Program-made: the position numbers and the translations under genes | Shown here: piece by piece, positions 44,775-48,698 of the stretch | Layout of the letters: each line of letters starts with the position of its first letter | How positions within the stretch are numbered: the stretch's first letter is position 1 | The notes under the pieces: model-generated | What the model was told of the DNA's origin: nothing | The model's database searches: none | What the model saw: the letters and a program-made list of their open reading frames with translations, nothing else | NCBI GenBank assembly: GCA_020060385.1 | Contig: JAGVAH010000039.1 | Location: 1 to 53,376 of the forward strand | Direction of reading: 5' to 3' | Origin: Syntrophobacterales bacterium | GTDB lineage: Bacteria > Desulfobacterota > Desulfobaccia > Desulfobaccales > 0-14-0-80-60-11 | DNA: 53,376 nt

Positions 44775-45446
44775 CTAAACCGGCCGGGTCACCGGGCGGG
44801 TGAGGTTTTCCTGGATATTCAGGTAGACTTCGGAGTAAGTCAGGCGGTCCTGGCTCCAGGCATAAAAGGCGTTGAGCATCATGGCGGCCACCATGAGGTT
44901 GGTGAAGAGGAGTTGGGGGGCACCCGCGGCCATGAGTTCTTCACAGGAGAGGTCCGCGGGGTGCCGGTCCTGGGGCTGGGCGATCTCCGGGTGGTAGCGG
45001 CTCAAGGAGGGGGTGAGGTCCAGGCCCTGCCGCCGCGCGAAAACCTGGACGTTGCCGTCCACAAAATCATTGCCCCCGGAAATGAGGGTGATTTCGGCTA
45101 GGGTGGCGGCATGATCGCTCACCAGCTTGCGGCTGGCGTGATTGTCCACCATCAGGAAGACCACCTCCCCGGCCCGGATAAGGCGGGAGACGTTGGCCCC
45201 GGTGACAAACTCCGGCACGGACCGGAGAGACAGATTTTCGAACTCCTGGGCCAGTTCCTGGGCCTTCACCTCCGCCTTGTTCCCCAGACGGCTGAAGGAC
45301 TGGCGGGAGGCGTTGGCCCGCTCGAAGCGGTCACCGTCGATGAGGGTGATCCGGGCCTTTTCCCTGGAATACTGCAAATAGCGGCAGAGAAAAGGCAGCA
45401 AGGCGCAGCCGATGCCGCCGATGCCCACAGCTTTGATTTCCAGCAT
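44775..45446 (-). CDS. ThiF/E1-like adenylyltransferase
   Basis: A 223-residue protein of the ThiF/MoeB/E1 family, which adenylates the C-terminal Gly of ubiquitin-like or sulfur-carrier proteins. Motifs: nucleotide loop VGIGGIG (8-13), LIDGDRFERANASRQ (Asp37, Asp39, Asn45, Arg48, Gln49), GNKAEVKA (Lys57/Lys61) and MVDNHASRK (Asp101), so the adenylation site looks complete. There is no CxxC zinc pair; a lone Cys168 in DLSCEEL could accept a thioester. The resemblance is to ThiF proteins found beside JAB proteins, as in PRTRC systems. The JAMM-protease gene lies 129 bases upstream on the same strand. No ubiquitin-like partner is seen. Confidence 0.85.
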   Translation of the reverse strand: MLEIKAVGIGGIGCALLPFLCRYLQYSREKARITLIDGDRFERANASRQSFSRLGNKAEVKAQELAQEFENLSLRSVPEFVTGANVSRLIRAGEVVFLMVDNHASRKLVSDHAATLAEITLISGGNDFVDGNVQVFARRQGLDLTPSLSRYHPEIAQPQDRHPADLSCEELMAAGAPQLLFTNLMVAAMMLNAFYAWSQDRLTYSEVYLNIQENLTRPVTRPV

Positions 45447-45483
45447 AAAGTCTCCCAGAGAGGTCCTTAGATGGAAGGGGCTA

Positions 45484-45570
45484 AAAGCTTTCAGCTATCA
45501 GCTTTCAGCAAAGAAAAAAACTTAAATACCATATTTAAGCTGAAAGCTGAAGGCTGACAGCTGCAAGCAT
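45484..45570. repeat. opposed period-7 arrays forming a large hairpin
   Basis: AGCTTTC/AGCTATC heptamers at 45484-45510 face AGCTGAA/GGCTGAC heptamers at 45538-45568. Between them is the perfect pair CTTAAATA / TATTTAAG around CCA. The whole 85 bases between the JAMM and ThiF genes can fold on itself. Confidence 0.75.
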
Positions 45571-45575
45571 ACTTC

Positions 45576-46238
45576 TCACGTCCCAAATTCGATGGGCCGG
45601 GGCAGGGGGGTGACTTTGCTCTCCACCTCTTGGGCCCAGTCTTCTTTAGGCGGCGCCTGCCCCCAGGGGATGGGGTAGGGGGTGAAGAGGCGCTCCGGGG
45701 GGATCTGGCCCCGGAGGCCCTGGACCACCACGGAACAGGAGATGGTCAGCTCCGCGTCGATGTTCCCCAGGGTAATGTGAAAACCGTCCTCATGGCGTTC
45801 GTCATTCTCATCCCTTTCGGAGTGGAAGGCCTCCACCCCTGCGTGGCTGTGGATGGTGCCCAGGCGGGTGAGGTCGGCGGGGAATTCCTTGACTTCGTAG
45901 TCGCAATGGCCGCCCCCCACGGTTTGGTGGGGAACGACCAATTCATAGGCCCGGGTGGCCTGCCGCCAGGCCAGCAGGACCACGGCCTCGCTTTTATAGC
46001 GGGAGTAGACCGCCTGGAAAAAGGCCAGGGACTGGAGGAGCAGGGCCCCGGGCAGCGGGGGGGCGGTGAGGCGCACTTCCGGCTCTTGTCCCTCAAGCCA
46101 GGGGATACCCCGGGCGGGCACCGCAGCCGTAAAGAAAGGAGTACTCTTCACCAAGAAAAGACCGTCTTGAGTGAGGAGGTAATAGATGGGGTCGTTAGGG
46201 GGCGTAAAATCCTGGTCTTTCAGGTAGATAGGCAGCAT
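45576..46238 (-). CDS. JAB/JAMM (MPN) domain metalloprotease-like protein
   Basis: About 220 residues; ATG 46238 is preferred because the frame upstream to 46265 lies in a heptamer repeat. The N-terminal 80 residues are a strand-rich domain (PIYYLLTQDGLFLVKSTPFF). The JAMM domain follows: catalytic Glu near 84 in SEAVVLLAW, and the zinc motif HSHAGVEAFHSERD near 130-143, an exact HxH-x7-S-x2-D. Eukaryotic and bacterial JAMM proteins remove ubiquitin-like tags or process their C-termini. With the E1-like gene downstream it makes a two-gene module. Confidence 0.85.
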   Translation of the reverse strand: MLPIYLKDQDFTPPNDPIYYLLTQDGLFLVKSTPFFTAAVPARGIPWLEGQEPEVRLTAPPLPGALLLQSLAFFQAVYSRYKSEAVVLLAWRQATRAYELVVPHQTVGGGHCDYEVKEFPADLTRLGTIHSHAGVEAFHSERDENDERHEDGFHITLGNIDAELTISCSVVVQGLRGQIPPERLFTPYPIPWGQAPPKEDWAQEVESKVTPLPRPIEFGT

Positions 46239-46241
46239 AAT

Positions 46242-46282
46242 CAGTGGCCAGTTGTCAGATAACAATAATCCAGTCAGTGACC
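46242..46282. repeat. period-7 tandem repeat, CAGTGGC/CAGTTGT family
   Basis: CAGTGGC, CAGTTGT, CAGATAA, CAATAAT, CCAGTCA: degenerate heptamers directly upstream of the JAMM gene. Confidence 0.65.
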
Positions 46283-46341
46283 ACTTCCTGGGGTTTGGAA
46301 TAGTTGGCCGAGGTCTGGGAGCGGTAAAATCCCACCCCCAT
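46255..46341 (-). CDS. possible 28-residue small ORF upstream of the JAMM gene
   Basis: ATG 46341 has GGGAG seven bases upstream and opens a 28-codon frame (MGVGFYRSQTSANYSKPQEV, then DWIIVI). Its C-terminus lies in the heptamer repeat. It is too short for a ubiquitin-like protein. It may be a leader peptide or chance. Confidence 0.25.
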   Translation of the reverse strand: MGVGFYRSQTSANYSKPQEVVTDWIIVI

Positions 46342-46423: not shown

Positions 46424-46738
46424 CTACAGCGTGGGGGCGATGAACACCAGCAGCCGCACGCGGGTGAGGGCCCGCAGGCCGTGGGGTTCGGAGACCGGCA
46501 TAATCTGCAGGGTGCCGGTCTTGGCCGGGATTTCCTCGGGGCCGCCGGTAAAGACCCCTTCTCCTTCCAGGATCAGGAGGGTTACTTCCGAGTCGGCGTT
46601 ATGGGAGTGCACCGGCAGTTCCTGGCCAGGCTCAAAATTGAAGGTGAGGAGCCGCAGGTTGGGAGAATCGAAGAGCAGTTCCCGATAAGGTTTATCTGCG
46701 GTGAACTTGGCTGTTTCCGGTAAATTGAATAATTTCAT
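46424..46738 (-). CDS. small single-domain cupin
   Basis: A 104-residue cupin_2-type barrel. Motif 1 is PGQELPVHSHNADSEVTLLIL (His, His, Glu metal ligands) and motif 2 is IMPVSEPHGLRAL (His). Ribosome-binding site GGAGGCGGC before ATG. Such cupins bind metal and small ligands; function unknown. It is on the same strand as the JAMM/ThiF pair, 180 bases upstream, and may or may not belong with it. Confidence 0.85.
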   Translation of the reverse strand: MKLFNLPETAKFTADKPYRELLFDSPNLRLLTFNFEPGQELPVHSHNADSEVTLLILEGEGVFTGGPEEIPAKTGTLQIMPVSEPHGLRALTRVRLLVFIAPTL

Positions 46739-47063: not shown

Positions 47064-48698
47064 GTGACCCCACGCATTATCCTCGCCGGAGAGGCGTCCG
47101 CCGCAGCCCGGGAATTGGCCGGGATCCTGGCCGGGAACGGCTACGAAGTAACTTTTTCTTCTCTGGAGCAAGTGCTGGGGGAGGGCCTGAGGCCGGACCT
47201 GTTAATCATTTTGGATGAATCCCCGGAAGCGTATGACGCGGTCCACCGGTTTAAGTCCCAGAAAGACTTTAAGGAAGTGCCCCTGATCGTCACCCTGGAT
47301 CAGTTTGAAGCCGCGGCCGCGGCCCGGGCCCTGGAAAGCGGGGCGGACGAGTTTTTGGTGCAGCCTTTCCGGGCTCCAGAGGTCCTGGCCCGGGTGGCGG
47401 TGCTGCTGCGCCTCCAGGATGACCGGCGCCTGTTGGTGGCCTCCCAGGAAGAATTCAACCGCATCTTTCACCAGACTCCCCATCCCCTGTTTCTCTGTGA
47501 CCGCCAGGGAGAGTCCTTTACCCTGAACCCCACCTTGGCCCGTCTCCTGGGCTACTCTACCAAAGGCAACGAGAAGCTGCCCCTGGCCACGGCCGATCTG
47601 CTCTACGGCCCGGGGGACCGGGAACGGCTGGACAAGATTCTGGCCCGGGAGGGAGAGGTGAAGCATGTCAAGGTGAATCTCAAGAGCCGGGAGGGAAGAC
47701 CGGTGCCGGTGCTGCTCAATGACCTGACCTTGCCAGCTGCGGGGCCGGAGATGCACGGCTTCCAGGTGGCGCCGGTGGGTTCCCCTTCCCCTTTGAAAAA
47801 GGCCCTGAAGGGGTTGGTGGAGCATCTTCTCCCCAGCGCCCGGGATTACCTGGCCCTGCTGCAGTTGACCCCCCTGCTGGGGGGGCGTTATGAGAAGATC
47901 AAGAAATTGGGGCAGGGCAGCTTCGGGGAGGTGTGGCTGGTGGTGGATACCGAAGAGCTGGGCCCCCAGCGCCAGTTCGTGGCCAAGATTCCCTTTCTGA
48001 GGGCGGCGAACCCCAAATTCCGCAAGGAGGCCGCGATTTGCGAGAGGCTGGCCCCCCACCCCGGGGTGGTGGGTCTGGTGACCACCCTGGAGGAGGACGG
48101 CAAGCTGGTCTTGATCCAGGAATACGCGGCCGGGAAGACCCTGGCGGACATGTTGGGGGAGGAGCTGCCCCGGCCCCTGGTGGAGCGCATCGTCCTGCAA
48201 CTGATCGAGGTGGTGGCCCATGCCCACCGGCACCAGGTGATGCACCGGGACATCAAGCCCAACAATATCATCATTCAGCCGGATGGGGTCTTGAAACTGC
48301 TGGATTTCGGAGCGGCCAAGATCTTGAAGGACAAAGACATCAGCGCCACGGTGGTGGGCTCTCGGCCTTTTATGGCCCCGGAGCAGATCATGGGGGAAAG
48401 CGAGCGCCGCAGCGACATCTGGGCCATCGGCGTGCTCATGTATCTGCTCTATACCGGGGACCTGCCCTTCTACAGCGAGGTTGAGAAACTTCTCATCGAT
48501 CAGATCCTGGAGCAGGAACCCGTACCGCCCCGGGAGGAAAACCCGGAAATTCCTCCGCCTTTGGAGGAAATTATTCTGAAATGCCTGAAAAAAAAGGTGG
48601 GAGAACGCTATCCCCACGCCCTGGCCCTGAGGGATGACCTCTTGCGCCAGTTTCCCCACTACGGCACCCAGACCGGGAGGTGGCCGTGGATCCAGTAA
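47064..48698 (+). CDS. receiver-PAS-Ser/Thr protein kinase fusion
   Basis: A 544-residue three-domain signalling protein. Residues 1-125: receiver-like domain that keeps an Asp in LLIILDESPEA but has lost the acidic N-terminal pair (RIILAGEAS) and the conserved Lys (VQPF instead of KPF), so phosphorylation is doubtful. Residues about 130-245: PAS domain (NRIFHQTPHPLFLCDRQGES, LLGYS). Residues about 272-530: Hanks-type kinase with GQGSFGEVW, VAKI, VMHRDIKPNN, LLDFGAAK and FMAPEQ, all catalytic residues present. No transmembrane segment. GTG start with AGGAAGG upstream. Its 3' end overlaps the next gene. Confidence 0.9.
   Translation: MTPRIILAGEASAAARELAGILAGNGYEVTFSSLEQVLGEGLRPDLLIILDESPEAYDAVHRFKSQKDFKEVPLIVTLDQFEAAAAARALESGADEFLVQPFRAPEVLARVAVLLRLQDDRRLLVASQEEFNRIFHQTPHPLFLCDRQGESFTLNPTLARLLGYSTKGNEKLPLATADLLYGPGDRERLDKILAREGEVKHVKVNLKSREGRPVPVLLNDLTLPAAGPEMHGFQVAPVGSPSPLKKALKGLVEHLLPSARDYLALLQLTPLLGGRYEKIKKLGQGSFGEVWLVVDTEELGPQRQFVAKIPFLRAANPKFRKEAAICERLAPHPGVVGLVTTLEEDGKLVLIQEYAAGKTLADMLGEELPRPLVERIVLQLIEVVAHAHRHQVMHRDIKPNNIIIQPDGVLKLLDFGAAKILKDKDISATVVGSRPFMAPEQIMGESERRSDIWAIGVLMYLLYTGDLPFYSEVEKLLIDQILEQEPVPPREENPEIPPPLEEIILKCLKKKVGERYPHALALRDDLLRQFPHYGTQTGRWPWIQ

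Follow-up and report, generated by a model that had tools for sequence, protein, structure and literature searches.

Two neighbouring genes of a Syntrophobacterales bacterium, coding for an E1-like adenylyltransferase and a JAMM protease, raise the question of which protein they act on. The window, i.e. the whole stretch of DNA analyzed (53,376 nucleotides), contains no ubiquitin-like protein (Ubl) and no E2 adjoining the pair. The earlier note on this DNA had been right about that absence, and had concluded that the two genes stand alone, with a substrate that might be encoded elsewhere or be an unrecognised small protein.

The adenylyltransferase and the JAMM protease

The E1-like gene (44775..45446, minus strand) encodes a 223-aa protein of the ThiF family, which scores 64.7 bits against the Pfam ThiF model, above the cut-off. 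The closest named family and best NCBIfam match is PRTRC_ThiF (TIGR03736), at 43.7 bits against a cut-off of 144.75, i.e. below the level of membership. All of the adenylation residues recognised in the earlier note are in place (G8xGGxG13, D37, D39, N45, R48, K61, D101 and C168), and they are invariant across the family and out to the PRTRC ThiF homologues. The best solved-structure match of the E1 profile is MoeB (1jw9); the protein has no rhodanese domain.

The JAMM/MPN+ protease gene (45576..46238, minus strand) encodes 220 aa from the ATG at 46238, which was taken as the start because the homologues begin there; a TTG at 46265 was rejected. The protein scores 27.1 bits against Prok-JAB of Pfam (cut-off 25.0), and its closest named family and best NCBIfam match is PRTRC_A (TIGR03735), at 38.4 bits, below the membership cut-off of 101.8. 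Profile comparison (hhalign, E 8e-14) identifies the two as homologous. The exact HxH-x7-S-x2-D site and catalytic Glu that had been read in this protein (H130-x-H132-x7-S140-x2-D143 and E84) are invariant out to PRTRC_A. An AF2 model (pLDDT 82) has the bacterial deubiquitinase BilC (8tyx_B) as its top solved structure, and its fold also matches Rpn11 and AF2198. Judged by these residues and by the MPN fold of the model, the protein is predicted to be a JAMM/MPN+ metalloprotease. The pair had been likened to PRTRC and bacterial ubiquitin-like systems, and this likeness holds, in that the closest homologues belong to the PRTRC set and the JAMM model matches BilC.

A ubiquitin-like partner on another contig

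The earlier note had proposed a search of homologous neighbourhoods for a recurrent small protein ending in Gly, and such a protein was found in Candidatus Methylomirabilota. In this group, in which one genome scan gave relatives at 46-47% identity, the JAMM gene occurs in 17 of 95 genomes, within operons of the order AAA-(X)-JAMM-E1-Ubl; the Ubl directly following the E1 is a small protein of 89-102 aa (first loci found), putatively of the beta-grasp fold. Three Methylomirabilota loci lack a Ubl gene directly behind that of the E1, and the genomes G410 and G417 have a Ubl without a JAMM match.

The genome of the window (G000) encodes the Ubl on a different contig, C32 (L067:1937-2257, plus strand). 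The pair is not, therefore, without a partner, and the suggestion of an unrecognised small protein encoded elsewhere was the correct one. A weak Ubl match at G000:C64 (L066) was judged to be due to chance after the ORFs had been read, and a 250-aa gene beside the Ubl gene was rejected as a component, since it is present in 23 of the 25 genomes compared, non-carriers included.

The Ubl is conserved through ...LEFVRLAGEKG and divergent thereafter; AGEKG closes the conserved block in every complete bacterial copy that was read, and the tail that follows GEKG in bacterial copies varies from 0 to 43 residues. Four Methylomirabilota copies end exactly at GEKG. In two other cases from this group (genomes G410 and G411; L163:507-1193, and L164 on the minus strand) a conserved acidic domain (approx. 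118 residues) is fused in frame to the Ubl, directly behind AGEKG. A conserved end followed by a variable tail or a fusion is the pattern that would fit a precursor trimmed by the JAMM protease. The Pfam ThiS model matches 10 of 14 copies, with L067 above the gathering score; the conserved C-terminus, AGEKG, differs from the C-terminal GG of ThiS/MoaD proteins. An AF2 model built from three Ubl sequences (pLDDT 47) was too poor to be used for fold assignment.

Co-inheritance of five genes

The JAMM gene was detected in 13 of 59 sampled relatives (one as a contig-end fragment), all belonging to one Desulfobaccales family, in which the carriers represent four of nine genera. Among relatives, full-length JAMM copies share 74-88% identity and the E1 proteins 75-89%, and the E1 gene accompanies that of the JAMM protease, being adjacent wherever the contig allows.

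Among the 25 genomes common to all five gene searches, the JAMM, E1, Ubl, AAA and X genes are all present in the same 10 (G000-G006, G008, G011 and G013) and all missing in the same 15. The E1 was scored as present at E below 1e-100, and the AAA ATPase gave E values of 8e-142 or better in carriers and generic matches, no better than 2e-43, in non-carriers; the latter contained no JAMM, no X and no significant Ubl. For any one pair of genes, the probability of agreeing to this extent by chance comes to approx. 1 in 3.3 million with genomes as units, these genomes being related to each other, and to 1 in 126 with the genera of the family as units. The Methylomirabilota operons are an observation separate from this count. 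The view of the pair as standing alone does not hold, given that Ubl, X and AAA are inherited together with it in all ten carriers.

In the Desulfobaccales the five genes do not form a single operon: the E1/JAMM locus lies apart from the AAA/X/Ubl region, in which no more than a few kb separate AAA from Ubl in several relatives. Contigs C31 (AAA and X) and C32 (Ubl) of the genome of the window may be adjoining.

Features flanking the pair

An inverted heptamer repeat (45498..45550), with perfect arms of 12 bp (45498-45509 and 45539-45550), lies between the E1 and JAMM genes. This gap measures 33-329 bases in orthologous loci, and its sequence is mostly unrelated among them; several relatives (L014-L019) carry in it heptamer-type short repeats of varying sequence, e.g. 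GAGCAGT arrays. Since the orthologous gaps are mostly unrelated and several contain other short repeats, the hairpin was rejected as a functional element. A 28-codon frame upstream of the JAMM gene (46255..46341, minus strand) is probably not a gene: none of the other carriers showed it, their sequence upstream of the JAMM gene being different, and it was rejected as a component on these grounds. The cupin gene (46424..46738, minus strand) is near the pair in most relatives; it was not found beside it at 4 of the 12 relative loci fetched, and was accordingly placed outside the system. The hairpin, the frame and the cupin gene named in the earlier note all exist; the weight given to them did not stand, as none follows the pair consistently, and all three are incidental. 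Elsewhere in the window (47064-48698, plus strand), a single chain combines receiver-like, PAS and Ser/Thr kinase domains.

The short frame invites the explanation that the E1 and the JAMM protease act on an unrelated RiPP-like peptide encoded at the locus. In some RiPP clusters peptides are modified by ThiF-like enzymes (PMC12250964), and a short frame is indeed present upstream; its absence from that position in other carriers, together with the occurrence of the Ubl in 10 of 10 carriers and in no non-carriers, makes this explanation hardly credible.

The E2-like protein X and its phage relatives

Protein X (260 aa; contig C31, L141:6532-7311, minus strand) matches no model of Pfam or NCBIfam. 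It has one invariant Cys (Cys149), found within a CL motif in 19 of 19 full-length bacterial X proteins. In the divergent Methylomirabilota, X is located between AAA and JAMM, i.e. in the place which PRTRC_B has relative to PRTRC_A. The alignment of X with its phage members scored 29-35 against PRTRC_B (hhalign), compared with a maximum of 24 over 100 column shuffles, and the Cys of X falls on the conserved Cys of PRTRC_B, as the Prok-E2_D/PRTRC_B type demands; without the phage sequences the match was marginal, its score being reached by 3 of 200 and 9 of 200 shuffles. The E2 type in the 2006 description has an invariant His downstream of the Cys (PMC1779556). The alignment of X contains no invariant His C-terminal to the Cys, and because this residue is missing, we term X E2-like and not a proven E2. 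One genome (L165) has a duplicated X gene, with a copy on each side of the Ubl gene, and in one relative two near-identical tandem genes of 119 aa lie between the AAA and X genes (L077:14567-15502).

The phage members come from seven IMG/VR contigs of 50-109 kb (L167-L173), which carry JAMM relatives at 34-39% identity (one scan); the contigs, viral according to IMG/VR, were read within 5 kb of the JAMM gene. Each of them encodes X, JAMM, E1 and Ubl. The phage X is homologous to the bacterial X (hhalign, E 6.6e-34), and the phage Ubl ends in [AG]GxKG followed by 0 or 1 residue. The Ubl alignment including the phage members scored 19.7 against PRTRC_C (hhalign), compared with a shuffle maximum of 15.9 (200 shuffles), with the terminal KG aligned. 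The PRTRC_C model itself (TIGR03738) has no match in the genome of the window and none in the control genomes either, so this result is not evidence of absence. Judging from these alignments, the phage copies bridge, by homology, X to PRTRC_B and the Ubl to PRTRC_C.

The phage JAMM proteins and most phage X proteins are extended at the C-terminus by long additional regions, and an N-terminal stretch of the L167 Ubl has a weak PHROGs link to endonuclease VII and repressor families. A second ThiF-like gene, whose product has the conserved end P-[ED]-[TR]-GAA, lies downstream of the phage Ubl gene (L167:8165-9151, L169:8266-9141, L170:7766-8677 and L173:7788-8636).

With PRTRC A and ThiF as the closest named families, and an X-JAMM-E1 order equal to the B-A-ThiF order of PRTRC, the genes might be taken for what is left of a PRTRC plasmid system that degenerated after settling on the chromosome. 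We regard this as very improbable, as none of the catalytic residues has been lost, either across genera (74-89% identity) or in Methylomirabilota, and the genes are strictly co-inherited with a specific AAA ATPase, for which the PRTRC loci examined carry no annotation. Moreover, no counterpart of ParB, PRTRC_E or PRTRC_F, the other genes of the plasmid operon, was seen in the window or in the fetched neighbourhoods.

The AAA ATPase

The AAA ATPase (approx. 580 aa; contig C31, L141:7969-9711, minus strand) has the Walker A motif GPPGVGKT and an intact acidic Walker B. In part of the Methylomirabilota (L037-L039, L127 and L162) a second, PAN-like AAA gene (approx. 315 aa) is convergent with the Ubl gene; it was rejected as a core part, since the Desulfobaccales give generic AAA matches only.

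The genome of the window (99.95% complete) contains no match to the proteasome-fold family PF00227, while most of the relatives tested have one. In relatives, both carriers and non-carriers have such matches, several of them beside AAA matches, as expected of HslV. A link with a 20S proteasome was rejected, given the lack of PF00227 in the genome of the window and its independence of carrier status in the relatives. Unfolding or extraction is a more likely role of the AAA ATPase than delivery to a 20S proteasome, because the genome of the window has no proteasome-fold gene.

Proposed function of the system

We consider it probable that the pair supplies the E1 and the JAMM protease, the latter serving maturation and deconjugation, of a chromosomal five-gene ubiquitin-like system (Ubl, E1, X, JAMM and AAA). 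The best reading of the genes is an AAA-coupled chromosomal variant of the ubiquitin-like system of the PRTRC type, its genes being divided among two or more loci. From the sequences we infer that the system conjugates proteins, and the following course of events may be envisaged. The JAMM protease would trim the Ubl precursor at its C-terminus, cutting after ...AGEKG, and the Gly laid bare in this way would then be adenylated by the E1. The Ubl would be passed on as a thioester via Cys168 of the E1 and/or Cys149 of X, and X or the E1 would attach it to target proteins, an attachment that the JAMM protease would reverse. Modified targets would be unfolded or extracted by the AAA ATPase.

The main rival is a sulfur-carrier pathway, in which a ThiS-fold protein is trimmed by the JAMM protease, adenylated by the E1 and made into a thiocarboxylate that delivers sulfur. 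QbsE/QbsD/QbsC and CysO/Mec are systems of this type. The Pfam ThiS matches of the Ubl and the position of MoeB as the best solved-structure match of the E1 speak for such a pathway, as does the combination of a JAMM protease, a ThiS-like protein and an E1 known from siderophore sulfur systems (PMC1779556). The ...AGEKG end in place of GG speaks against it, as does the nature of the consistent partners (E2-like protein and AAA ATPase); neither a sulfurtransferase nor a biosynthetic enzyme was seen to recur alongside the genes, the E1 lacks a rhodanese domain, and the PRTRC set, to which the closest homologues belong, has its own E2-like protein. On balance we find a sulfur-carrier role unlikely. 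The earlier note had held that constant association with ThiS/MoaD-type carriers would reduce the pair to ordinary cofactor synthesis. This applies in part: Pfam places the partner in the ThiS fold family, yet the protein has the GEKG end and a variable tail instead of GG, and it is accompanied by the JAMM protease, the E2-like protein and the AAA ATPase.

The conjugation system preferred here would also bear on wider questions. Ubiquitin-like systems of bacteria are understood in few cases, and most of the examples that have been studied are mobile defence operons. A chromosomal system conserved across genera and equipped with a dedicated AAA ATPase would offer a simple model of modifier, activating and transfer enzymes, deconjugase and unfoldase outside eukaryotes and archaea, and the phage copies are a route to asking about the origin of PRTRC-type systems. 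Tentatively, and with the chances lying somewhat on the other side, we propose that the five genes form a ubiquitin-like pathway of bacteria that has an AAA unfoldase of its own and works without a 20S proteasome, and that it shares its descent with a cassette carried by large phages, the E1-E2-Ubl-deconjugase set having been traded between bacteria and phages. The exact five-gene set may already have been described in the literature. The case also indicates that orphan-looking E1/JAMM pairs can have distant partners, which are detectable by co-occurrence and by the signature of a modifier with a conserved end and a variable tail.

Comparison with known systems

The archaeal SAMP/UbaA/JAMM1 system resembles the one described here in its modifier of the ThiS fold (predicted here from the Pfam match), MoeB-like E1 and JAMM protease. 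The differences are the E2-like partner and the dedicated AAA ATPase found here, the lack of a proteasome-fold gene in the genome of the window, and the single C-terminal Gly, which follows Lys, in place of GG. The CysO/Mec and QbsE/QbsD systems likewise combine a JAMM protease, a ThiS-like protein and an E1; unlike them, the present set has the GEKG end and E2-like and AAA partners, and no metabolic genes were seen recurring with it.

The Bil (BilABCD) and Bub systems share the logic of Ubl, E1, E2 and JAMM protease, and BilC is the top solved match of the JAMM model. There is a single Ubl domain here, against two in BilA, and the E1, at 223 aa, is devoid of the extra domains of BilD. An AAA ATPase is added with respect to both systems, and the genes are unlinked in the genome of the window.

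The PRTRC system, which we equate with the ‘fourth operon type’ 6d of Iyer, Burroughs and Aravind 2006 (PMC1779556), shares with the present set a Ubl ending in FVRxAGxKG (in part of the family), a single-domain E1, a JAMM protease with an N-terminal alpha+beta region and an E2-like protein encoded directly upstream of it. The proteins described here score far under the PRTRC models, and X has no invariant downstream His. In contrast to PRTRC, the Desulfobaccales set is chromosomal and split, and includes a dedicated AAA ATPase.
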